Shown here piece after piece: positions 9,410-41,190 of a stretch of DNA of 64,000 nucleotides (position 1 is its first letter; every line of letters starts with the position of its first letter). Made by a program: the position numbers and the translations under genes. Where the stretch lies: the NCBI RefSeq assembly GCF_023920225.1, contig NZ_CP092588.1, positions 1-64,000 on the forward strand, given 5' to 3'. This DNA is from Vibrio gazogenes (GTDB lineage Bacteria; Pseudomonadota; Gammaproteobacteria; Enterobacterales; Vibrionaceae). The notes under the pieces were generated by a model. The model made no database searches. It was given only the letters and a program-made list of their open reading frames with translations, and was not told where the DNA came from.

Positions 9410-11299
9410 ATGATATCACCAGATGCAAAGGTCAAGATACAAAATTTTGGCCGGTTCTTGTCCAACATGGTTATGCCGAACATTGGGGCATTTATCGCAT
9501 GGGGGTTTATTACAGCACTGTTCATTCCAACAGGATGGACACCCAATGAAACATTGGCTGCACTTGTTGGCCCAATGATTACCTACTTATTGCCATTGCT
9601 GATTGGTTATACCGGGGGGAAACTCGTCGGTGGTGAACGCGGCGCTGTCGTGGGTGCGATCACAACCATGGGCGTTATCGTCGGTGCAGATATCCCGATG
9701 TTTATGGGTGCAATGATTGCAGGTCCAATCGGTGGATGGGCAATTAAAACATTTGACAAAAAAGTCGATGGGAAAATCAAAAGCGGCTTCGAAATGCTGG
9801 TCAACAACTTCTCGGCCGGTATTATTGGTATGATCTTCGCGATCATCGCTTTTTTCCTGATTGGCCCATTCGTCAAAGTCCTCTCTACTGCTCTTGCAAC
9901 GGGTGTAGACGTCTTAGTAAAAGCGCACCTACTCCCTTTAACTTCACTTTTTGTCGAACCCGCTAAGATTCTATTTCTGAACAATGCCATCAACCACGGT
10001 ATTTTCTCTCCATTGGGTATTCAACAAGCCAGTGAAACCGGTAAATCGATCTTCTTCCTGATTGAAGCGAATCCGGGGCCAGGATTGGGTATTCTTCTGG
10101 CCTATATCGTGTTTGGTAAAGGGACAGCAAAACAAACAGCCGGTGGTGCAACCATCATTCACTTTTTGGGCGGGATCCACGAGATTTACTTCCCATATAT
10201 TCTGATGAACCCTCGTTTGATTCTCGCAGCCATTGCTGGCGGGATGACCGGTGTCTTTGTATTAACAGTATTTGGTGCCGGTTTAGTATCGCCCGCATCA
10301 CCCGGTTCGATTTTTGCCGTATTACTGATGACGCCGAAGAGCTCACTCATCGGCGTACTTTGTTCAATCACCGCCGCGACTGCCGTCTCATTTACGGTTG
10401 CGTCACTGTTGATGAAAACACAAAGAAATCAAGAAACCGATGATGAAGATTCTTTGGAGAAAGCAACAACGCAAATGCAAGAAATGAAAGCTGAATCCAA
10501 AGGCTCATCACACGCTCAGCCATTCACAGGTGATGTCAAAAAGATCATTGTCGCATGTGATGCTGGCATGGGTTCCAGTGCGATGGGTGCCAGTATGCTG
10601 CGTAAAAAAGTACAAGCAGCGGGATTGGATATTCAGGTCACCAATCTGGCCATTAATAATCTTCCCCAAGATGTTGATATCGTCATTACTCATAAAGACT
10701 TAACTGATCGAGCCCGCAAACATGCGCCATCGGCACACCACATCTCTTTAACCAACTTTCTGGATAATGAGATGTATAACAATCTCGTCAATGAGATAAA
10801 AAAGTCTGATGCCGGTCAATCTGTCGCGCCACAGAGCGCTGATACGGAGGCTCAACCGGCATTCCAAATAGAAGCCCGTAACATTCACTTAAACCTCAAA
10901 GCAAGTAACAAAGAAGAAGCGATCCGTTATGCAGGAGAACAACTCGTCGCACTCGGATATGCAGACGCCAGCTACATCGATGCCATGTTTGAAAGAGAAA
11001 AAATGGTGTCAACGTATCTGGGTGAATCCATCGCGGTGCCACACGGTACGATTGAAGCGAAGAATCATGTTCTGAAAACCGGGATTGTCATCTGTCAATA
11101 CCCAGATGGTGTTCAGTTTACCGATGACGAAGATGGCATTGCCAAACTGGTCATCGGTATTGCAGCACAGAACGATGAACATATGGGGGTCATTTCGACG
11201 ATCACCAATGCGCTTGATGACCCGGATGCGATTGCGATACTCACGTCAACAAATGACGTTAACGCCATTCTAGACGTGTTAGGTCATACCACTGCATAA
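9410..11299 (+). CDS. mtlA: PTS mannitol transporter EIICBA
   Basis: Takes up mannitol and phosphorylates it to mannitol-1-phosphate; inner membrane. The 629-residue form starts at the ATG at 9410, preceded by AACGGGGAA. Upstream in-frame codons from 9356 lie in the leader and lack a ribosome site. Domains: EIIC membrane part (about 1-340), EIIB with phosphocysteine motif VACDAGMGSSAMG (about 380), a linker, and EIIA with the histidine motif AVPHGTIEA (about 540). Followed by mtlD and mltR in the classical order, with a terminator-like hairpin between mtlA and mtlD. Regulation is probably by CRP, MltR and the antisense RNA. Confidence 0.97.
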   Translation: MISPDAKVKIQNFGRFLSNMVMPNIGAFIAWGFITALFIPTGWTPNETLAALVGPMITYLLPLLIGYTGGKLVGGERGAVVGAITTMGVIVGADIPMFMGAMIAGPIGGWAIKTFDKKVDGKIKSGFEMLVNNFSAGIIGMIFAIIAFFLIGPFVKVLSTALATGVDVLVKAHLLPLTSLFVEPAKILFLNNAINHGIFSPLGIQQASETGKSIFFLIEANPGPGLGILLAYIVFGKGTAKQTAGGATIIHFLGGIHEIYFPYILMNPRLILAAIAGGMTGVFVLTVFGAGLVSPASPGSIFAVLLMTPKSSLIGVLCSITAATAVSFTVASLLMKTQRNQETDDEDSLEKATTQMQEMKAESKGSSHAQPFTGDVKKIIVACDAGMGSSAMGASMLRKKVQAAGLDIQVTNLAINNLPQDVDIVITHKDLTDRARKHAPSAHHISLTNFLDNEMYNNLVNEIKKSDAGQSVAPQSADTEAQPAFQIEARNIHLNLKASNKEEAIRYAGEQLVALGYADASYIDAMFEREKMVSTYLGESIAVPHGTIEAKNHVLKTGIVICQYPDGVQFTDDEDGIAKLVIGIAAQNDEHMGVISTITNALDDPDAIAILTSTNDVNAILDVLGHTTA

Positions 11300-15367: not shown

Positions 15368-16066
15368 TTAGTGGTTTGAGCTTCCCATTTCTAATAAAGA
15401 AGCATTTCCCCCTATCGCTGTTATATTTATAGTGCGTGTCCGTTCCGTGATGAAACGTAACACGAGTGCTGCATCATGAGCCATCGGGAGCTGATCCAAA
15501 TCCGTTTCAATAACCGGACTAATAATCACCCCCGGACGCTTGGACAGTTGTTGATTCACCTGCCGAGCATCTTGCGGCTCACAAATCATTCCGACCTGAC
15601 GCACGTCGCACGTCATGATCTGATTAAATGCCTCAACCGCCACGATTTGTACCAGATGAATGGGAAAACGACTGTTTTCCAATGCTGACGCCAAACGTGA
15701 ATTCAGCGTCGTATCATCCGAACAAAGTAAAATGCTGTTTCCGGCAATTAAAGCTGCTGCTAACTGGGCAACGACAGCCCGTGAAGCATTTGCACCACTT
15801 TGCTTGTGGAGAAGCACGACAACACCTCGGCCAGAGCAGTACAGTTCGTTTGTCTCCCCTGTCGGACCGACTAAAAGCTGTCCCTCAGCAATCCGTGTTC
15901 TCGCACTGTTGAGGTGATAAGTGATGACCTGAGCTAAGTCAGCAGCATTGTGTTCCAAAGATTGGGCAAGACGAAGTAAATGCTCACTTTTAGAACTAAA
16001 ATCGGTTAAGTTCCATTGCTGCCATGCCAAAGCAGCATCAGAAAAATGTGTTGTTTTATTCACCAT
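15368..16066 (-). CDS. Stand-alone PutA C-terminal (ALDH-superfamily-like) domain protein
   Basis: A 232-residue protein resembling the non-catalytic C-terminal ALDH-superfamily domain that long PutA proteins carry after their P5C dehydrogenase domain. It includes SGANASRAVVAQLAAALIAGNS, a Rossmann-like aldehyde dehydrogenase piece, and ends with TRTINITAIGGNASLLEMGS, like PutA C-termini. There is no catalytic cysteine motif. Its ATG overlaps the putA stop by 11 bp, with AAGGAGCGG inside the end of putA as ribosome site, so translation is coupled. In long PutA this domain helps seal the substrate tunnel or the oligomer. I infer that the separate chain docks on PutA. Confidence 0.75.
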   Translation of the reverse strand: MVNKTTHFSDAALAWQQWNLTDFSSKSEHLLRLAQSLEHNAADLAQVITYHLNSARTRIAEGQLLVGPTGETNELYCSGRGVVVLLHKQSGANASRAVVAQLAAALIAGNSILLCSDDTTLNSRLASALENSRFPIHLVQIVAVEAFNQIMTCDVRQVGMICEPQDARQVNQQLSKRPGVIISPVIETDLDQLPMAHDAALVLRFITERTRTINITAIGGNASLLEMGSSNH

Positions 16067-19000
16067 GATCCGCTCCTTGTTTTACCGCTGTTTCACTCTG
16101 TTTTACCGCTGTGTCACGATAAAAAGGGCGGGTAAACCGGTAGAGATAATGAGGCCCGCCAGCTTTCGGCCCAGTCCCTGACAATCCTTGCCCCCCAAAC
16201 GGCTGAACGCCGACAACAGCACCAACCTGATCACGGTTGATATAACAGTTTCCGACCCGGGCATGCGCTTCAATCCACCGATACGTTGTTTCGTTCCGGC
16301 TATGAATCCCTAAGGTCAAACCAAAGCCAGTCTGATTTATCTGTTCAACAATATGTGGTAAATCTTTTGCCCGATAACGAACAATATGTAATACCGGACC
16401 AAAGTGTTCTTCTTTCAGACATTCAATCCCACTAATTTCAAATGCCGTTGGTGGAACAAACATGCCATGCGCACATTCATCATCCAATACCAGTTCAGCA
16501 ATGAGAGTTTGAGTCTGTTTCATATGTTCAATATGCGCCAATAACCGATGCTGTGCTGCTTTATCGATCACCGGCCCCACGTCAGTACGATGAAGTTTTG
16601 GATCACCGACGGAAAGCTCCTGCATTGCTCCTTCAATCAATGTCACCACCCGATCCGCGACATCCTCTTGGATAAATAACACGCGTAACGCTGAACAACG
16701 TTGTCCGGCTGATGCGAATGCTGAACGCAAAACATCTCTCACAACCTGTTCAGGCAATGCCGTACTATCAACGATCATGGCGTTTTGCCCGCCCGTCTCA
16801 GCAATCAAAGGAACCGGATCACATGGTCTTGCTGCTAATGTTTGGTTGATTTGTTGTGCTGTTCCTGTTGAACCAGTAAAAGCAACACCGGCAATCGAGG
16901 GATTAGAGGTAAGTAAGTGACCGCTTTCTTTACCATTACACGGCAACAAATGGATCACATCGGTAGGAATCCCCGTATCCAACAGCAGTTGAATCGCACG
17001 AAATGCGATGAGGGACGTCTGTTCCGCTGGTTTAGCAATCACCGTATTCCCCGCAGCCAAAGCCGCAACCACTTGTCCAACAAAAATCGCTAAGGGGAAA
17101 TTCCACGGGCTGATACAGACAAACACACCACGTCCCAGATACTGCGTATGCCGTTCGGCGCCATCGAAACCGATATGTGATGTTGGGGTGAGTTGCATAA
17201 TCTGAGTGGCATAATAACGACAGAAATCGACCGCCTCCCGGACTTCATCAATACTGTCATGGATCGTTTTACCCGCTTCTTGATGACACAATGCAACAAA
17301 CTCTGGCAAATGTGATTCCAGCAGGTCAGCAAAGTGCGTCAGATAAGCAGCCCGCACAGCAAGTTCAGTGTCCCGCCATTGAGGAAACGCTTGCTGTGCA
17401 ATCTCAATCGCTGTCGTAATCTGCTGCGCATTTGCCATGATCACGTTTCCGACCTCGATACGATGGTCATAAGGCACAGTAACCGCAGTCACCACGGCAT
17501 TCTCCTTGATCATGCTTTCGTATTGATCTTCACCTTGAATAATCGGTGCGGCGTACCATTGCTGATATAAATACTCAGATACTTTGTGCTCAAAAGGGGC
17601 AGCTTCACTTTCAATATCAATGTTGGCACCGTAGGAATTGCGACGGTCGGGGTAGATATCCAGCGGTAACGGAATCGCAGCATTATGCAATGTTTCAAAC
17701 GCCTGTAGTGCCTCCACAGGATGACGATTCAGTAAATCAATCGGACAGCGGGCATCGACCAGCCGGTGAACGAAAGAACTATTGGCACCATTTTCTAACA
17801 AACGCCGCACCAGGTAAGGTAATAAATCCTTGTGATTACCCACCGGCGCATAAATTCTGATTGCGGGGCGATAAGCCTCCATCACCTGATGAAACAGTGC
17901 GTCACCCATGCCATGTAAACGCTGGAATTCATAATCATGGTGTGTTGCCATCACAGCAACGGCGGTCACTGTCTGAGCATTATGACTGGCAAACTGAGGA
18001 AATAAAGCACCTCGGACATGCTCCGATAACAAAAAGCGAGCACAGGCCAGATAAGAAACATCTGACGCTTCCTTGCGGGTAAATACCGGATAACCTGCGT
18101 AACCTTTTTGCTGTGACCACTTGATCTCACTATCCCAATAGGCACCTTTAACCAACCGGACCGGAATCAAATCCCCTTGATCTTTTGCTAAACCAGTCAG
18201 CCAAGTGAGTGCAGGTAATGCGCGTTTTGAATAAGCCTGAACAACAATCCCCAGCTTACCCCAACCGCGGTTAACATCGTGGCGGTATAATTTCTCAAAC
18301 AGTACCAGAGAAAGTTCCAACCGATCGGCTTCCTCGGCATCAATCGAGATACCAATATCAAACTCTCTCGCCCGTTTAACCAGCACCACCAGCGTCTCCA
18401 GCAACTCGGTCATGACCCGTTCCTGATTCGCGACTTCATAGCGAGGGTGCAATGCAGACAGTTTGATCGAGATAGAATGCGATGACTGAAGCGTTCCCGA
18501 TCCAGAAGCTTTACCCACCGATTCAATCGCTGACAGATAATCCTGACAATATTTATTTGCATCAGCACTGGTCAGTGCTGCTTCACCAAGCATATCGAAA
18601 GAATATGTATATCCTTTATCACGCATTGACTGGCCATTTTTCTGCGCTTCATCAATCGACTGACCCAACACAAACTGGCGCCCCATGACTTTCATGGCTT
18701 GATTCATCGCTTGACGGATCACTGGCTCTGAGAAACGGTTGACCAATCGGTTTAATGCCTGCATCGGGCTGGTACTCTGAATATCTGATAACTCAAGCAC
18801 TTTGCCAGTAATCATCAACCCCCATGTCGAAGCATTGACGAAAACCGAGTCAGAGTTCTTCAAATGAGAACGCCAGTCAGCAACACTCAATCGATCTTTA
18901 ATAAAGGCATCTGCCGTTTCAGCATCAGGGATACGCATCAGCGCCTCTGCAAGGCACATCAGCAAAATACCTTCCTGCGTATCCAGACTATATTCCAGAA

Positions 19001-19232
19001 GCAGCGCGTCAATCATTTGCACCGACTTCTTATCGGCTCTGATTGCCTTGATCAACTGAGTCGTCTTGTCCGTGATTTCTTGTTTTTCTTGATTAGTCGG
19101 TGTTGCCAGCGGTAACAACTCCTGTAGCCATTGTGACTCATCAGCCATATATAATGGCGAGATAAGTGCCCAAAGTTTGTTCAGTGGCTGCTCAACAAAC
19201 TCCGACTTCAACACATCATTTGCAGTAAACAT
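16056..19232 (-). CDS. putA: Bifunctional proline dehydrogenase / P5C dehydrogenase
   Basis: Converts proline to glutamate in two steps (FAD proline dehydrogenase, then NAD aldehyde dehydrogenase with channelling). The 1058 residues contain a helical N-terminal arm (1-110), the PRODH barrel (about 180-480, with LIPVRLVKGAYWDSEIK and a C-terminal RRLLENGANSSFVHR) and the ALDH domain (about 550-1030) with the cysteine motif SAGQRCSALR. It lacks the N-terminal ribbon-helix-helix repressor domain of E. coli PutA, so it should not repress its own operon. It also lacks the C-terminal ALDH-like domain, encoded by the next gene. The C-terminus has a duplicated TAVKQ caused by a 21-bp-period repeat (16078-16112). 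Confidence 0.95.
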   Translation of the reverse strand: MFTANDVLKSEFVEQPLNKLWALISPLYMADESQWLQELLPLATPTNQEKQEITDKTTQLIKAIRADKKSVQMIDALLLEYSLDTQEGILLMCLAEALMRIPDAETADAFIKDRLSVADWRSHLKNSDSVFVNASTWGLMITGKVLELSDIQSTSPMQALNRLVNRFSEPVIRQAMNQAMKVMGRQFVLGQSIDEAQKNGQSMRDKGYTYSFDMLGEAALTSADANKYCQDYLSAIESVGKASGSGTLQSSHSISIKLSALHPRYEVANQERVMTELLETLVVLVKRAREFDIGISIDAEEADRLELSLVLFEKLYRHDVNRGWGKLGIVVQAYSKRALPALTWLTGLAKDQGDLIPVRLVKGAYWDSEIKWSQQKGYAGYPVFTRKEASDVSYLACARFLLSEHVRGALFPQFASHNAQTVTAVAVMATHHDYEFQRLHGMGDALFHQVMEAYRPAIRIYAPVGNHKDLLPYLVRRLLENGANSSFVHRLVDARCPIDLLNRHPVEALQAFETLHNAAIPLPLDIYPDRRNSYGANIDIESEAAPFEHKVSEYLYQQWYAAPIIQGEDQYESMIKENAVVTAVTVPYDHRIEVGNVIMANAQQITTAIEIAQQAFPQWRDTELAVRAAYLTHFADLLESHLPEFVALCHQEAGKTIHDSIDEVREAVDFCRYYATQIMQLTPTSHIGFDGAERHTQYLGRGVFVCISPWNFPLAIFVGQVVAALAAGNTVIAKPAEQTSLIAFRAIQLLLDTGIPTDVIHLLPCNGKESGHLLTSNPSIAGVAFTGSTGTAQQINQTLAARPCDPVPLIAETGGQNAMIVDSTALPEQVVRDVLRSAFASAGQRCSALRVLFIQEDVADRVVTLIEGAMQELSVGDPKLHRTDVGPVIDKAAQHRLLAHIEHMKQTQTLIAELVLDDECAHGMFVPPTAFEISGIECLKEEHFGPVLHIVRYRAKDLPHIVEQINQTGFGLTLGIHSRNETTYRWIEAHARVGNCYINRDQVGAVVGVQPFGGQGLSGTGPKAGGPHYLYRFTRPFYRDTAVKQSETAVKQGADHGE
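17506..17517 (+). other. Origin-type 12-mer inside putA
   Basis: TTGATCATGCTT, identical to the RctB-type 12-mers at 38344, 38466 and 38563, within the 18-bp sequence TCCTTGATCATGCTTTCG (17503-17520), which recurs exactly at 23373-23390. It lies in putA codons for a SMIKE segment. Candidate distal RctB site. Confidence 0.45.
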
Positions 19233-19538: not shown

Positions 19539-20354
19539 TTATTTTTGGTAACGTTTTTTGTAAGCAGACGGGGATAGGCCAACGAGTCGAATAAATGCAT
19601 GAGAGAAAGAGCTCTGCCCTGAGAAACCGGTAACATCCGCAATCTGTCCCAGCGTATATCCGCCCTGTTGAATGAGCCGTTTTGCCATTTGAACTCGCTT
19701 ATCCAACACATACTGATACGGTGTGACACCAGTCGTTGCTTTAAAATGTGAGTGGAATTGACTTTCTCCGAGAAAAACACGGCCGGCAAGTTGGGCAACC
19801 GTGATCGGTCGTCCTATATTTCGATCGATATAATGATCAATGATGTCCATATCGAAGCGAGACTCTTTGACGTGTGGAACATAACCGGTGATATGACGAG
19901 GTAAGATCGAGACGAGCGTATCATGACAAGCCTGACTCAGCAGATAATCTTCCGGAGCTGTGGCAATCTCCTGCCCCAGAATTCGAATCAGATTCTTAAA
20001 TGGTTCATCGAGGCAAAAATAGCATCCAGAATTCGACAGATCATTGAATTGTTGCATCATCAGTGGTGCTTCTGTCGCAAAAAACGGTAAATTGAGAACC
20101 ATGATATCAGCACTTTCAACAATCCCACCGAAAGCGTGGTTGACTCCCGCGTGGACAATACACCCCTGCCCCGGGCCAACTCGGTTACCATAGCCACTAA
20201 TTTCAAATTCCGTCATTCCATTAAGGCATACGACAATTTGTGTATAAAAATGAGCATGGCAATCCATCCCCGATGGCAACGTCATCACTTCCGCCGGTCT
20301 CGGCGTCGGCGTTTGATCGGACACCGATAAGGAAGCTTTTTTTTGCATAGACAT
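19539..20354 (-). CDS. AraC-family transcriptional activator, probable proline-use regulator
   Basis: A 271-residue regulator: an N-terminal cupin-like ligand-binding domain (about 15-150) and two C-terminal helix-turn-helix motifs (about 170-268, including PITVAQLAGRVFLGESQFHS and GYTLGQIADVTGFSGQSSFS, ending SPSAYKKRY). The ATG at 20354 has GAGGAGG seven bases upstream. The gene is directly upstream of putA on the same strand, and a matching direct-repeat operator lies in front of putA. It is therefore the likely activator of putA-putP in response to proline (a PutR role). That role is inferred from context. Confidence 0.85.
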   Translation of the reverse strand: MSMQKKASLSVSDQTPTPRPAEVMTLPSGMDCHAHFYTQIVVCLNGMTEFEISGYGNRVGPGQGCIVHAGVNHAFGGIVESADIMVLNLPFFATEAPLMMQQFNDLSNSGCYFCLDEPFKNLIRILGQEIATAPEDYLLSQACHDTLVSILPRHITGYVPHVKESRFDMDIIDHYIDRNIGRPITVAQLAGRVFLGESQFHSHFKATTGVTPYQYVLDKRVQMAKRLIQQGGYTLGQIADVTGFSGQSSFSHAFIRLVGLSPSAYKKRYQK

Positions 20355-20604
20355 CCCACATCCTCCTCAAAATCCGGTGCGACAATTGCGATACGCAATA
20401 TAGTATCAATCATATGAATAGTTGATTTTTACCTTAGAACCGCTATTTTTTCAAACACAACGACACAAGATAAGCATACAGATGATTATCAGAAATGATG
20501 AATCCAAATCTGTAACTAATTCCGTGAAAATAATTGCCGTTCATGTATATTAGGCATGTTGATAAATCTCGAAAGAGTATGACGCTGAGCGTTTGAGCGA
20601 AATC

Positions 20605-20642
20605 CGGAACAATGATCAAGTGCACATAAATTACGGAGAATG
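20605..20642 (+). other. Distal RctB 39-mer-like site
   Basis: Starts with CGGAACAATGATCAAG, identical to the start of the inc-region element at 38189. The second arm CGGAGAATG ends at the same distance (38 bp in all) as CGGAAGCATG does in the origin copy. It lies in the 535-bp gap 20355-20889 between the AraC gene and the PEGA-domain gene, 18 kb from the origin. Nothing else recognisable is in that gap. Confidence 0.6.
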
Positions 20643-20889
20643 TTTGTTCAAGCGCAAACCAGAGCAGAGATTGAGGTGAAGTACTTGCATATTTTCTCAT
20701 TCGGCTCAAAATGGAAGTTGCATGTTTAAAATATACAAAATCAGAGACCTAAGTTAAATTTTGTGTTATTCATGCTTCCAATAGAGTAAGAATTATGAGA
20801 CAGCTACTTCATTATTTTTCTAGTTGTCGAGTCATTGTCTTCTCCACAGAGTTACTGTGGCTAAACGTTAAAAATTGTTGCAGGGACCT

Positions 20890-21996
20890 ATGATAGTACG
20901 TCACATCCCAGCGCTCGTATTGGCGCTTATCCCTCTTTTGGGACCAGCATTTGTATATGCTGATGAAGCAAATGTCGCACAGACTGATCCTGTTGCGACG
21001 ATTGATGCAAAAATAGATACAAAGCAAGGTGAAATAAAATCTATTTCATCCAAGTACGATACTGAGATCACGAAACTCCAGCAGTTGAAAAATGATCAAG
21101 ACCGTTTGAAACGCGAGGGCGGTAAGCTGGAAACGAAAAGAAATCGTGCCAAATCCGATCTGGACAAACAATATAGCCAACTTCTCGAAGATCCGGACAT
21201 CGATTTAACAACCTTTCAGAAAAAGTATCAGGAAGTCTGGAATGAGTTAAAGCAAAATCAGGCAGCTCGACTGGATAATGAACAGACGATTACTGAAAGT
21301 GAAATGCGTGTTTCCCAGCTCAAACAGAAGCAAGCCCGTCTGAAAAGTGAGCTCGACAACCTGAAAGAGTCTCGGGTTGAAGCTCGGGTCAAACGCATTA
21401 ATGCTGAGTTGATGGATAGCAACACGATTGAAGCGAACTATAAGACAACGTGTTCTACGACGATGACGTTGGGTGAATGTGCGAATCAAGGTGTTTATCT
21501 AACCAAACAGAAAGCAGTCTCCGCCTTTCAGGATAAACTACTCGATAATCTGACAGAGTCTGTCATCGCCAAGCAAAATCTTAAAAATATCGATCTGAAT
21601 GTATCAATTCAGGATAGCCAGATTTTGTCGAGCGGTTTTCAGGGTAACAATGATTACTACACGAAGATTCAAGCACAACTTCAGGCTCGGCCAGAAACAA
21701 CTACCGGATGTAAATTGTTGGGTGTATCAACACGGTACTGTCTGCAAGGACAGAAAAACTATAAGCCGAAAAAAGAAAAGCAGTGGGCAAACATAACCGT
21801 CCGCTCTGACCAGTATCAAGATTCTGTGACGATTGACGGAGTCAGTTATGGTAGTACTCCAGTTGAGATTGTTCTACCACACGGTCGCCATCAGTTTACA
21901 GTGTCCAAAGACGGGTATGAGACATATAATCAAGTCATTACAGTCAATAGTAATGATACGGTATGGGTCAAACTTCGTCCGAATAAGCAAAGCTAA
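20890..21996 (+). CDS. Coiled-coil and PEGA-domain envelope protein
   Basis: About 368 residues. The chosen ATG at 20890 follows GCAGGGA; an upstream in-frame TTG at 20875 has no ribosome site. A signal peptide (LVLALIPLLGPAFVYA) leads into a long Lys/Gln-rich coiled coil (about 35-170), a middle domain with paired cysteines (TTCSTTMTLGEC, GCKLL, RYCLQ) and a C-terminal PEGA domain (VTIDGVSYGSTPVEIVLPHG). It probably sits in the periplasm or is anchored to the envelope. It is a paralogue of the first 370 residues of the next gene. Function unknown; the lap secretion genes nearby make a role in surface structure or adhesin handling possible. Confidence 0.8.
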   Translation: MIVRHIPALVLALIPLLGPAFVYADEANVAQTDPVATIDAKIDTKQGEIKSISSKYDTEITKLQQLKNDQDRLKREGGKLETKRNRAKSDLDKQYSQLLEDPDIDLTTFQKKYQEVWNELKQNQAARLDNEQTITESEMRVSQLKQKQARLKSELDNLKESRVEARVKRINAELMDSNTIEANYKTTCSTTMTLGECANQGVYLTKQKAVSAFQDKLLDNLTESVIAKQNLKNIDLNVSIQDSQILSSGFQGNNDYYTKIQAQLQARPETTTGCKLLGVSTRYCLQGQKNYKPKKEKQWANITVRSDQYQDSVTIDGVSYGSTPVEIVLPHGRHQFTVSKDGYETYNQVITVNSNDTVWVKLRPNKQS

Positions 21997-22153: not shown

Positions 22154-23986
22154 ATGCGACAAGGAATAACTGCTCTATTATCAACCCTCCTGCTTGGTTT
22201 CGTATCATTCAGCGCTTTTGCTGAGGATGCGACATTGCCAGAAGAAGCCGCACCTTTAGTCAACCAAATTGACGATGCACTTTTCAGTAAAAATACTGAG
22301 CTGGAAAAAGCCCAGAAAGTTTTACAAGAAAAACAACAGACTGTCGCAAACCAACACACCGAGCTCAACAGACTTCATCAACAAAATAAGGAACTTTCAG
22401 CCAAGCTGAACCAAACAAAAAAAGATTTGGAAAATGCCTATCAAAAGATGATCTCGGATCCCAAACTGGATATCAGCGCTTATCAGTCTACCTACCAAAA
22501 TGCATGGTCAAAATACAAGCAAAATCAGAAGAGTTTGTTTGATATGGATAACCAACTGGAAGAACAGAAAGGGTTACTCAAAGATCAGGAAACAAAGGTT
22601 TCTCTACTCAAAAAGAACATTGCCGATCTCCAGAGAAATAAGTTGAAAGCCCGGGCAAAACGTTTGAGGATCGAACTGTTAAAAGAAGGGGTGGAGAAAG
22701 TCAGCTTCACCAACCGTTGTCACCCATCAATGACAATTGCCGCATGTGAACAACAAACCATAAAACTGGCTCTGCAAAAAGCTGTCAAACAGTTCCAGAC
22801 ATCTTTACTGAACAGTGTTAGCGAGTCTCCAACGGCAATGAAACATGCTTCGAAAGCGTCCCTGAATATTCATGTCCTTCAGCATCAGACAATTCAGTCG
22901 GGTTTCTCTGATGCCAGCCGGTATCAAACCATTGTTGAAGCGCGGTTGGGAGCACGGCCTAGCAATGCAGCGCCTTGCCAACTTTTAGATATTGATGCCC
23001 AGTACTGTATCATTGATGATCAACAACCAATTCAGCAGGAAGTCGCTTGGTTTAATCTGACACTTCGTTCCAATCTATATGACGACCAAGTGATCATTGA
23101 TGATGTTCGTTATGGTCATACACCACTGACATTAACGCTACCGGAAGGTGTTCATCAGGTCCGGATCGAAAAAACAGGTTATATTCCGTATCAAACAGAG
23201 GTTAATCTGAAGTCAGACAGCCAACTTCGGGCTGTTTTGAAAGAAGAGCATAATCAGTTGAAAACTGGCTATGCATTTGCGGATGCATTATCACCAAGCC
23301 TCTCAGGGCCCGAGTTGGTCACGATAACGCCAGGGAAATTCTTTATCGGGGAACATGCATCGACCCAAGTGTTCCTTGATCATGCTTTCGCGATTTCATC
23401 AACCCCCATCACCGTTGGACTGTTCAAAGCATTTGTCACTCAGACCAATTACCGTTCAGATGCAGAATTGATGAAAACGTGTGTGGCGATGATCAATAAC
23501 CAAATGACCCCCCAGTCTGGCCATTACTGGCGTAATCCAGGATTTAAACAATCTTCGCAATCTCCGGTTGTTTGCGTCAGCCAAAATGATGCGAAAGCAT
23601 TTACAGACTGGCTTTCAAAACAAACAGGGTTTAAATACCGCCTCCCAACGGAAGATGAATGGGAAATTGCAGCTCGGGCTGGTACTCAAACCGACTACTG
23701 GTGGGGCGATGATTTTGCTACCGGCTTAGCCAATACCGGGTGGAGTGGCTCTTTCTGGGCAAACAAAAGCACATCTCCGGTCAAATCATTCCCTGCTAAT
23801 CCTCTCGGACTGTATGACGTTATCGGAAACGTCTGGGAATGGACCAGCGCGCCTCAAGGTCTCCTTAAAGGCGGAGCTTGGAGTTTCTCACCACTCAATG
23901 CAGTGGTCTATAGCCAACTCTTCTCTGAGCCATCAACAGCCGCTAATTACATCGGTTTTCGAGTTGTAAGAGACATTAAAGAGTAA
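22154..23986 (+). CDS. Coiled-coil, PEGA and formylglycine-generating-enzyme-like domain protein
   Basis: About 610 residues from the ATG at 22154, chosen because it begins the signal peptide MRQGITALLSTLLLGFVSFS; the ribosome site is weak. Layout: coiled coil (about 35-175), cysteine-bearing middle domain matching the preceding gene (NRCHPSMTIAAC, PCQLL, QYC), PEGA domain (about 315-385) and an FGE-sulfatase/SUMF1-like fold (about 400-608; YRLPTEDEWEIAARAG, GLYDVIGNVWEWT, LLKGGAWSFSP). The C-terminal fold lacks the catalytic cysteine pair expected of true formylglycine-generating enzymes, so it is likely a binding rather than an enzymatic module. An intrinsic terminator follows. Confidence 0.85.
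   Translation: MRQGITALLSTLLLGFVSFSAFAEDATLPEEAAPLVNQIDDALFSKNTELEKAQKVLQEKQQTVANQHTELNRLHQQNKELSAKLNQTKKDLENAYQKMISDPKLDISAYQSTYQNAWSKYKQNQKSLFDMDNQLEEQKGLLKDQETKVSLLKKNIADLQRNKLKARAKRLRIELLKEGVEKVSFTNRCHPSMTIAACEQQTIKLALQKAVKQFQTSLLNSVSESPTAMKHASKASLNIHVLQHQTIQSGFSDASRYQTIVEARLGARPSNAAPCQLLDIDAQYCIIDDQQPIQQEVAWFNLTLRSNLYDDQVIIDDVRYGHTPLTLTLPEGVHQVRIEKTGYIPYQTEVNLKSDSQLRAVLKEEHNQLKTGYAFADALSPSLSGPELVTITPGKFFIGEHASTQVFLDHAFAISSTPITVGLFKAFVTQTNYRSDAELMKTCVAMINNQMTPQSGHYWRNPGFKQSSQSPVVCVSQNDAKAFTDWLSKQTGFKYRLPTEDEWEIAARAGTQTDYWWGDDFATGLANTGWSGSFWANKSTSPVKSFPANPLGLYDVIGNVWEWTSAPQGLLKGGAWSFSPLNAVVYSQLFSEPSTAANYIGFRVVRDIKE
23376..23387 (+). other. Origin-type 12-mer inside the FGE-domain gene
   Basis: TTGATCATGCTT within TCCTTGATCATGCTTTCG (23373-23390), identical over 18 bp to the copy in putA (17503-17520) although reading frame and protein context differ. 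Candidate distal RctB site. Confidence 0.45.
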
Positions 23987-37629: not shown

Positions 37630-38067
37630 TTTCATTTTCCCCATCAGACGAACTGCTTCCTTTATAACTAGAATCATATTTCATGGTGATGAGGTTCTGT
37701 CGATACTAAAACCATAGGTCGTAATACACCTCCTCGATGACCATAAATGACGATACCGGAACGATTGAAAGAAGCGTGATACTTACGGTGATTGCGATTT
37801 CAACTGCATACGATATTTCCAAAACCGCTATTATCAGCGTTGATCGCGAACATGTTTTACACTTCTTTTCTCTAAGACGCTGAAAATCCGAACATCTTAC
37901 CAGTCAAACGCCTTAAAAAAAGGGGCTCGTTCGTCTACAATGGATCTTATTCTGTCAAAAAAAATCTCAGAAATGCCAGAATAAAGAAAAATATCAGTCG
38001 TGAATCGTCATTCAATCAAGTCAATCACACATATGGATAATAAAACGAGAAGCAACCGACCGGAAGA

Positions 38068-38477
38068 ATGATCATGGCATGACCCCTTGATCATTTTTCC
38101 AAGAGTCAAAGAAGAAATAGAAGCATGATCAAGGGATATGAACAATGTAAATTCAGTGAATTCATTCATGATCTTATGATCAAATATTCGGAACAATGAT
38201 CAAGATGAATTTATCTCGGAAGCATGAGTTTTCTTGCTATAACTACGGGAGGTGTCAATTCAACAGGGGGATAGGTCGTATTTATCTGGATTTGTCGCTA
38301 AATTGAAATGACAGACATCCCGGAAAGTAGGGCATCACCACCCTTGATCATGCTTACGTAACGACAGAGCGTGATATATATCGAGTTCTCTCCCAAAAAA
38401 ATGTGTTTTTCGATGATCAAAAGTCTGCAAAATCGTTAGGAATGGAAAGTGAGAAACCAGATACCTTGATCATGCTT
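38068..38477. repeat. Origin incompatibility region with scattered RctB 12-mers and a 39-mer-like element
   Basis: RctB-type 12-mers centred on a Dam GATC site occur at 38068, 38087, 38121 (minus strand), 38344, 38413 and 38466. A 38-bp element at 38189-38226 starts CGGAACAATGATCAAG and ends CGGAAGCATG, resembling the inhibitory 39-mers of V. cholerae oriCII. This matches the negative-control (inc/rctA) half of a Vibrio chromosome II origin. The upstream part 37630-38067 has no gene or clear repeat; a 62-codon frame here looks non-coding. Confidence 0.75.
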
Positions 38478-38880: not shown

Positions 38881-38895
38881 GATATGGACAGGAAT

Positions 38896-40872
38896 ATGAG
38901 CACCCACGAAAAAATATTAATTAAAGCTCCCAGAAATCATAAAGATGGACATCTATTTCAAGTATCAGAATCATCGATCAATTGGATAGAACAGTATCAG
39001 CACTTTAAAGGGGTAACCAGAAGCATCATTGAACTACTAAATTTAGTTTCTTTAAAAGGCATGAGTAGTAAAGATGGTTTAGTTTCAACAACAGAGCTGA
39101 TTGAGGCCGCAGATGGACAGTTGACCAGAGCCGCAATTCAACAGCGGTTACGTGCAGCTGTCAGTGTTGGTCTCTTCGAACAAATTCCTGTCCGGTTCGA
39201 GGAAGGTCTTGCGGGCAAAACAATGCTGCATAAATTTATTAACCCCAGTCAGTTGATCTCATCATTGGGAGCCACCAGCCTGATTACCGAATCGGTAAAA
39301 CAGTCAGAGAAACAAAAACGTTCAAAAGCGCTGGCACAAACACAAGTTAATCAACGCCTGTTAAATGAATATGGGTTAAATACCCCCCCTGCAATCAAAG
39401 ATGAAGCCGATCAATTTGTGGTTTCACCAACCAATTGGGCTGGGATTATTGACCAGGCATTAGCACCGCCAAGAACACGTAAAAATTACCAGAAGTCAAT
39501 GGTTTCAATTTCTGGGACTCGTGCTGTGATCGAAACAAGATCATCCAAAAATATTATGACGGTTGATGATCTGATGACACTGTTTGCCCTGTTTACATTA
39601 ACCGTTCAATACCATGATCATCAGCGTGAAGAATATCATTTGAACGCGAAACAGATTCCGAATAAGACACCACTGTATATCACGGATATCTTGTCACTTC
39701 GGGGCAAGAAGGATAGCGGGCCGGCGAGAGACTCAATCCGAGACAGTATTGATCGCATTGAATTTACTGATTTTCAGCTCCATGAACTCACCGGGCGTTG
39801 GCTCAGTGAAAATATGCCGGAAGGATTTAAAAGTGATCGTTTCCGCTTTCTGGCCCGAACGATCACGGCTTCAGAAGAAGCTCCGGTTGAAGGGGCTGAT
39901 GGTGAGATTAAGATCAAACCCAATCTCTATATCCTGGTTTGGGAACCTTCATTTTATGAAGAACTGCTGACGCGGGACTACTTTTTCCTGTTTCCACCAG
40001 AAATTCTGAAACAGCATACGCTGGTATTCCAACTTTATTCTTATTTTCGGAGCCGGATGTCTCGTCGACATCATGAAACCATGCTGTTGTCTGAACTGAA
40101 TCAGAAATTAGCCCGTAATATCGAATGGCGACGCTTTTCGATGGATCTAATCCGTGAGTTACGGCGTTTATCCGAAGGGAAAGGGGATGATGATCTATTT
40201 GTCGTCAATCTATGGGGATATCACCTTTCTGTCCGATCAATCTATGCCAAGGGTAAACTTTCGGATTATGAAGTAGACATTAAATGCGATGTTGAAGAAG
40301 TGTTGCGTTTCTCCAGAGCGAGAACAACCAATGCCGGCAAACGCAACATGGCGCCAACTTTACCGAATCCACTTCGCCATGAGATGGTCTCTAAGCAAAA
40401 ACTGGAAGAGCTTGCTTCAATTATTGATGGTGAGTTTGAACCCATCCAACGTAAAGCGCCATCTCCCAGAGGCAATTTAGGCCGCCGGGTCAAATTACGT
40501 AAACATCTGGTAGAGATCAATGCTGATGAAATTACGATAACCTTATCAAAATATACCTCACAGGAGGCGCTGGAACGCAGCATAAGCGCTTTATCTGCGA
40601 TGACCGGACACTCCCCATCATTAATCCGAGAAGAGTGTCAGGAGTTGATTGATAAGCTCGATTGGCTAAAGGTTGGCGATACAGTGCTCCCTTACGAAAT
40701 CCTGAGCAAGACGATTGAGCTGTATAATTCCCGTAGTCGTAATAAACATTTGTCAATTGAACGATTAATCTCAGGATTGGCGGTGCGGCGCAAAGTGTGT
40801 AAACAGATTAGTGAAGGGCATTTGGACGAGTCGGTGTTTTTAGTGCTTGATGAAGTGGCGATTGGTATCTGA
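38896..40872 (+). CDS. rctB: Chromosome II replication initiator RctB
   Basis: Vibrio-specific initiator that binds the 12-mers to start, and the 39-mers to limit, chromosome II replication. Starting at the ATG at 38896 (MSTHEKILIKAPRNHKDGHL) gives 658 residues, the V. cholerae length; an in-frame ATG at 38884 would add four residues. The ribosome site is poor for either. Recognisable segments are WIEQYQHFKGVTRSIIELLN, GQLTRAAIQQRLRAAVSVGL (first winged helix), the central RepE-like winged-helix part (about 150-480) and a basic C-terminal domain. It faces away from parA2 across the origin. Confidence 0.97.
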   Translation: MSTHEKILIKAPRNHKDGHLFQVSESSINWIEQYQHFKGVTRSIIELLNLVSLKGMSSKDGLVSTTELIEAADGQLTRAAIQQRLRAAVSVGLFEQIPVRFEEGLAGKTMLHKFINPSQLISSLGATSLITESVKQSEKQKRSKALAQTQVNQRLLNEYGLNTPPAIKDEADQFVVSPTNWAGIIDQALAPPRTRKNYQKSMVSISGTRAVIETRSSKNIMTVDDLMTLFALFTLTVQYHDHQREEYHLNAKQIPNKTPLYITDILSLRGKKDSGPARDSIRDSIDRIEFTDFQLHELTGRWLSENMPEGFKSDRFRFLARTITASEEAPVEGADGEIKIKPNLYILVWEPSFYEELLTRDYFFLFPPEILKQHTLVFQLYSYFRSRMSRRHHETMLLSELNQKLARNIEWRRFSMDLIRELRRLSEGKGDDDLFVVNLWGYHLSVRSIYAKGKLSDYEVDIKCDVEEVLRFSRARTTNAGKRNMAPTLPNPLRHEMVSKQKLEELASIIDGEFEPIQRKAPSPRGNLGRRVKLRKHLVEINADEITITLSKYTSQEALERSISALSAMTGHSPSLIREECQELIDKLDWLKVGDTVLPYEILSKTIELYNSRSRNKHLSIERLISGLAVRRKVCKQISEGHLDESVFLVLDEVAIGI

Positions 40873-41174: not shown

Positions 41175-41190
41175 CTTGATCATTGTTCCG
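41175..41190 (-). other. RctB-site core (inverted) downstream of rctB
   Basis: CTTGATCATTGTTCCG, the exact reverse complement of the 16-bp core at 38189 and 20605. The second CGGA-type arm is not conserved at the expected distance, so it may be a half-site or a 29-mer-type element. It lies in the otherwise empty gap 40873-41432. Confidence 0.55.

Follow-up and report, generated by a model that had tools for sequence, protein, structure and literature searches.

A predicted RctB-binding site outside ori2 in Vibrio gazogenes: an iteron nested in a 39-mer and conserved among Vibrio genomes

In the window analyzed here, the first 64,000 nucleotides (forward strand) of contig NZ_CP092588.1 of Vibrio gazogenes (RefSeq assembly GCF_023920225.1), positions 20605–20642 carry a 38-bp site at which an iteron is nested in a 39-mer, two types of binding site of RctB, the initiator of chromosome 2 replication. 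The site is real and not a chance match. We consider it a predicted RctB site outside the origin, which, together with two iteron-like sites nearby, would in all likelihood form a cluster titrating RctB, with or without bridging, and restraining the origin ori2. It is very probably the positional ortholog of Vibrio cholerae chrII-10. A preliminary description of the window had proposed a remote 39-mer-type RctB site at this place; 39-mer grammar, matrix score and position agree with it, and its conclusion is right, stronger than the argument that was offered for it.

RESULTS

Sequence and layout of the site

RctB iterons are described as carrying TGATCA and as being Dam-dependent, and 39-mers as having no Dam site. 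A 39-mer consists of two 9-bp boxes and an A/T-rich 19-bp spacer (PMC3688505); TTACGG is the motif published for the 29/39-mer RctB sites from chromatin immunoprecipitation with sequencing. The parts of the present site are as follows.

20605–20642, + strand: composite RctB site, iteron nested in 39-mer (exact 39-mer grammar, top matrix score, 38 bp as in the chrII-10 deletion)
20605–20620, + strand: iteron CGGAACAATGATCAAG with TGATCA core, holding the only GATC of the intergenic gap, at 20614
20606–20614, + strand: 39-mer box A, GGAACAATG
20615–20633, + strand: 19-bp spacer, A or T at 14 of 19 positions
20634–20642, + strand: 39-mer box B, CGGAGAATG, which together with the TTA before it gives TTACGG

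The 9–19–9 layout is that of PMC3688505, with the register of the boxes (which nine bases make up each) being our own fit to the published description. We saw the layout of a plain 39-mer, with both boxes in phase, the A/T-rich spacer and the TTACGG core, and inside it the TGATCA core of an iteron. Because of the GATC at 20614 the site was classed as composite and not as a plain 39-mer; this corrects the preliminary description, as the 16-bp core is a TGATCA iteron and has the Dam site that is described as absent from 39-mers. A TCAAT-like extension 3′ of box B (20648–20654) is conserved at the put locus in relatives.

The 39-mer grammar was derived from up to 2 kb upstream of rctB in 81 regions (80 named loci and the window). 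Offsets from [CT]GGAA to YTACGG in these regions were 29 (147 times), 19 (53 times, the 29-mer) and other values (six times); the pair at 20605 has the offset of 29, as do the ori2 39-mers. Perfect matches to CGGAANNAT-N17-YTACGG in the whole genome are exactly those at 20605, 37757 and 38217, while one mismatch brings three extra matches, all on the other contig. As the reversed control of the grammar yielded 14 matches at up to one mismatch, only perfect matches were weighed. With a matrix built from 141 ori2 39-mers of relatives (the present genome and two sisters were excluded), position 20605 scored 33.3 bits, the maximum of the window, against 26.0 and 22.8 for its ori2 39-mers; the remaining positions of the window stayed at or below 8 bits, and the maximum over 100 Markov sequences was 9.1.

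Exact copies of the 16-mer CGGAACAATGATCAAG are found at 20605 (+), 38189 (+) and 41175 (−), and the 4.71-Mb genome has no further copy even when one mismatch is allowed; at up to three mismatches the window holds 15 matches (mean 0.99 in 100 shuffles). The preliminary description had correctly reported the 16-bp core common to 20605 and 38189, leaving the third copy unmentioned. The features around ori2 are listed below.

37757–37794, + strand: ori2 39-mer, parA side (grammar, matrix)
38189–38204, + strand: iteron in the inc region of ori2, no 39-mer; the template of the preliminary description
38217–38254, + strand: ori2 39-mer, central (grammar, matrix)
38884–40872, + strand: rctB, chromosome 2 replication initiator (PF11826, PF18622)
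41175–41190, − strand: iteron 3′ of rctB, one of the three exact copies of CGGAACAATGATCAAG

As a template, the element at 38189, which is 17.6 kb from the site, does not hold: the 38-bp spans at 20605 and 38189 both terminate in ATG as had been described, but the 39-mer parse fails at 38189. We rejected it as a second 39-mer, since it has no YTACGG and its second arm, CGGAAGCATG, is box A of 38217–38254; the distance from CGG to CGG is 28 there and 29 at 20605.

With the ori2 39-mers the site shares the 9–19–9 boxes, the TTACGG core and the spacing; unlike them, it contains GATC (absent from 140 of the 141 ori2 39-mers of relatives) and lies off the origin. With the 12-mer iterons of ori2 it has in common the TGATCA core and the Dam site; unlike them, its iteron is isolated, outside any array and nested in a 39-mer. 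The iteron at 41175–41190 sits ∼300 bp 3′ of rctB, and in 70 of 80 regions, among them the window, an iteron-like site (up to three mismatches) was observed in the 2.5 kb that follow rctB.

Probable correspondence to V. cholerae chrII-10

According to Baek and Chattoraj (2014, PMC3937223), chrII-10 combines both types of site, its iteron lying within a 39-mer. The flanks of their chrII-10 deletion stop at 1,027,995 and resume at 1,028,034, which gives 38 bp; iterons chrII-5 and chrII-6 are placed at ∼1,025 kb and the end of the locus at 1,030,773 (PMC3937223). In V. mimicus (loci L017 and L131) and V. metoecus (L018 and L130) the composite occupies the same gap. In another relative, G089, iterons lie at −3,121, −3,030 and +2,758 bp from the composite; on the assumption that chrII-10 begins with the composite, in the same orientation, this spacing predicts V. 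cholerae sites at 1,024,875, at 1,024,966 and at 1,030,754–1,030,769. The published coordinates agree with the length, with the neighbours seen in relatives and with the site spacing to ∼20 bp. Judging by coordinates and relatives, the site at 20605–20642 is very probably the positional ortholog of chrII-10, and the analogy to V. cholerae drawn in the preliminary description turns out to be closer than claimed. The two are alike in their 38 bp, in the nesting of iteron and 39-mer and in location on the replicon of rctB, and the spacing to flanking iterons in V. cholerae fits that of a close relative; the distance to ori2 differs, being 17.6 kb here and ∼40 kb for the V. cholerae locus (PMC3937223).

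Neighbouring genes and flanking iterons

16056–19232, − strand: putA
17505–17520, − strand: iteron-like site in putA, codons E-S-M-I-K, counterpart of chrII-5 or chrII-6
19539–20354, − strand: AraC-family regulator gene (araC) adjoining the site
20875–21996, + strand: PEGA-domain gene
23375–23390, − strand: iteron-like site in FGE-domain gene, codons L-D-H-A-F, fitting the right end of the V. cholerae locus

The 520-bp gap between the araC and PEGA-domain genes (20355–20874) is free of genes, as had been stated; the sole open reading frame found mechanically inside it, 20443–20709, has a TTG start and 88 codons’ worth of product (88 aa). Past araC lie putA and a gene for an SSF symporter (putP). 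By its position, the site at 23375 is perhaps chrII-11. Both this site and the one at 17505 are present in V. gazogenes; a second putA iteron has been lost in this genome and in two sisters. The stretch of araC highest in synonymous conservation, 20253–20267, matches an iteron-like TGATCA site in five relatives (L115, L118, L123, L130 and L131) and has no TGATCA here; its counterpart is possibly a further V. cholerae site.

Conservation across genomes

Shuffles and identities are given as raw values that ignore kinship. With as many as two mismatches allowed, the 16-mer has a match in 98 of 99 Vibrio genomes; as its reversed control matches many of these genomes too, this survey was taken as a lead only. 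The composite pattern, in which the iteron is followed at a set distance by the TACGG half (at most one mismatch), has a match anywhere in the genome in 210 of 227 Vibrio genomes, and its reversed control gave one match among the matches listed; conservation, for which the preliminary description had named sister species as a check, is broad. Sites with variant boxes (L129/L158 and L170) fall outside this strict pattern and its counts. Among the 17 Vibrio genomes with no composite at this threshold, 14 have RctB and three do not; two genomes of ∼1 Mb placed in the genus (G026 and G118) have neither RctB nor a composite match. At two mismatches, 10 of the 14 match somewhere: three beside putA (G148, G083 and G222, with G083 also matching at ori2), six at ori2 only and one beside neither. 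Composites were found in 154 of 197 genomes of the family (9 of 13 genera) and in 18 of 247 genomes across the order, 17 of the latter being Vibrio.

Majority-base identity in 42 Vibrio genomes was 0.79 over the site (50 bp) versus 0.41 and 0.43 in its flanks. Within the genes, the two iteron segments of putA ranked first and second of 849 in synonymous conservation (25 genomes), with 17505 being second; the top-ranked segment stems from other species, as that iteron is the one gone in V. gazogenes. In the FGE-domain gene the iteron segment (23375) ranked first of 332 (17 genomes). Given the synonymous conservation and the iterons that survive loss of putA (see below), we rejected the view that constraint on the proteins accounts for the in-gene sites by itself. 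In some Vibrio loci (L119–L123, L126, L128, L129 and L147) a second, inverted iteron-like site begins 14 bp before the composite.

Position relative to rctB

We picked by hand, among the matches listed with both coordinates, 49 genomes, nearly all with no more than five contigs; G069 and G163 (∼10 contigs) were taken in and some similar ones (such as G154, G157 and G182) were left out. In 49/49 the composite is on the contig that carries rctB, a figure that is silent on the excluded drafts with site and rctB on separate contigs (such as G109, G117, G133 and G135). The composite lies on the parAB side in 41 of the 49 genomes and within 70 kb of rctB in 40, with a median distance of 25.8 kb (circular distance was computed for 17). 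The site at 20605 likewise is on the replicon of rctB, on the parAB side and near ori2 in the map of the window.

Composites in other genera

Among 20 loci from other genera (L218–L237), 12, all from genus g2 (L218–L228 and L231), have a composite-like match just past the 3′ end of rctB; of the rest, two (g2) are at ori2, three (L234–L236) are beside putA, two of these also adjoining araC, and three are beside no gene tried. In 20 further loci (18 from g94 and two from g92), to which a looser composite pattern was applied, the composite lies beside the put araC in 12, all from g94, and nine of these 12 have two convergent composites. Such a convergent pair, ∼330–385 bp, upstream of the put araC was observed in g94 loci L236, L242, L243, L246–L251 and L256.

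Persistence of sites after gene loss

In 60 Vibrio genomes we looked at whether the site lies next to araC. Of 53 composite hits, which represent 42 genomes after removal of 11 hits from duplicate genomes, 52 adjoin araC, with the gene end 77–494 bp from the site; the same holds in 18 further genomes, for a total of 59/60. In the exception, G106, neither araC nor putA was found in 19.5 kb, yet the genome keeps the composite and an iteron-like site 195 bp off. In five enlarged g94 loci we did not find putA, putP or araC in 18 kb; the composite is beside PNPOx in 5/5 of these put-less loci, and PNPOx is its neighbour in several put-bearing relatives, which suggests that the PNPOx-side composite is the same ancestral site as the one at the put locus. 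In the put locus of L125, putA was not found in 18 kb; a 437-bp spacer there (9592–10028) has its best putA matches, 23 and 16–17 bp long, at two iterons, which keep the 91-bp distance that they have where putA is intact. As sites outlast the put genes, and iterons the loss of putA, selection acts on the sites; the sequences thus argue that in some genomes the RctB-type sites of the put locus are selected apart from neighbouring genes.

DISCUSSION

Titration of RctB combined with bridging to the 39-mers of ori2 is the simplest and most likely account of the site. RctB would be bound by the nested iteron in the methylated state of the GATC, and by the enclosing 39-mer in any methylation state. 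Together with the iterons at 17505 (putA) and 23375 (FGE-domain gene), the composite would form a cluster that is copied early after ori2 firing in this genome, draws RctB off the iterons of ori2 and may also bridge to its 39-mers. Early or repeated firing of ori2 would then become less likely. Early duplication would not be a general feature, because nine of the 49 composites are 126–434 kb from rctB.

According to PMC3937223, chrII-10 of V. cholerae binds RctB whether methylated or not, it reduces the copy number of a mini-ori2 despite extra RctB, and in multicopy it lowers the ori2/ter2 ratio; RctB ATPase activity is reported there as not changing significantly with chrII-10. Bridging by RctB between 29/39-mers inside ori2 has been observed by electron microscopy. 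We infer that the site at 20605 would act as its V. cholerae counterpart does and that bridging may extend to remote sites. PMC3937223 also compares the locus with datA of E. coli, which likewise lies near its origin, binds the initiator and holds initiation back; datA binds DnaA, whereas the present site is predicted to bind RctB.

Several observations weigh against titration and bridging. The chrII-10 deletion alone is reported to have no growth phenotype in V. cholerae, and its effect is described in one place as an opposite change of marker ratio and elsewhere as insignificant for oriII activity (PMC3937223). In a 2025 study, mutation of three prominent sites named after VC genes (chromosome 1) had minimal effects, although one of the three gave a weak, significant negative effect. 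In the genomes, one of two putA iterons is gone from the present lineage; the 14 Vibrio genomes mentioned above have rctB yet no composite at one mismatch; the composite is nearly absent in two genera (1/18 in g89 and 0/8 in g96); and the nine distant composites lie far from rctB, all nine still beside araC.

One could speculate further that the put-locus cluster is an old replication-control locus of Vibrionaceae, independent of its host genes, in which the composite is a methylation-sensitive switch: hemimethylation behind the ori2 fork would disable the iteron mode while the 39-mer mode stays, and the locus would briefly act on the sister origins as a partner that only inhibits. We regard this extension as doubtful. 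A lower probability still is given to a transcriptional operator, a place where RctB or the adjacent AraC-family protein would bind and set expression of the regulator or of the put genes. The near-constant company of araC, kept even by the nine composites more than 70 kb from rctB, is what an operator would lead one to expect, and RctB is known from published work to repress its own gene via a 29-mer. However, the distance to araC varies, similar sites lie inside coding sequence, and the 2025 V. cholerae study concludes that, a weak effect at VC1803 aside, the only transcription that RctB appears to regulate is its own; as the site is retained in G106 with no araC or putA found in 19.5 kb and in all five g94 loci with no put gene found in 18 kb, an AraC/put operator as the main role was rejected.

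It is less probable again that the site is an iteron only, its TTACGG half being fortuitous. Identity of its 16-mer to the iterons of ori2 and past rctB would fit; the fixed spacing of iteron and TACGG half in 210 of 227 genomes, the phase shared with the ori2 39-mers, a matrix score above theirs and the reported binding of RctB to unmethylated chrII-10 (PMC3937223) speak for a genuine second half. The least probable reading, and a very improbable one, makes the site a relic with no present role, which would accord with the weak deletion phenotype of chrII-10 (PMC3937223) and with the lost putA iteron, but not with the sharp conservation of the site against diverged flanks, the synonymous constraint on the in-gene iterons or the sites kept after gene loss.

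That RctB sites occur outside ori2 was already known from V. cholerae; the breadth of conservation and the persistence after gene loss are new. Genus-wide conservation of chrII-10 was not found reported in the open-licence literature searched, supplements excluded, which is weak evidence of absence. The importance of off-ori2 RctB sites had been left open because deletion of chrII-10 alone did little. The nested design is also a natural system in which to ask how RctB selects its stimulatory or its inhibitory mode. Broad conservation in Vibrio, synonymous constraint and survival without the neighbouring genes argue that such sites matter for fitness.
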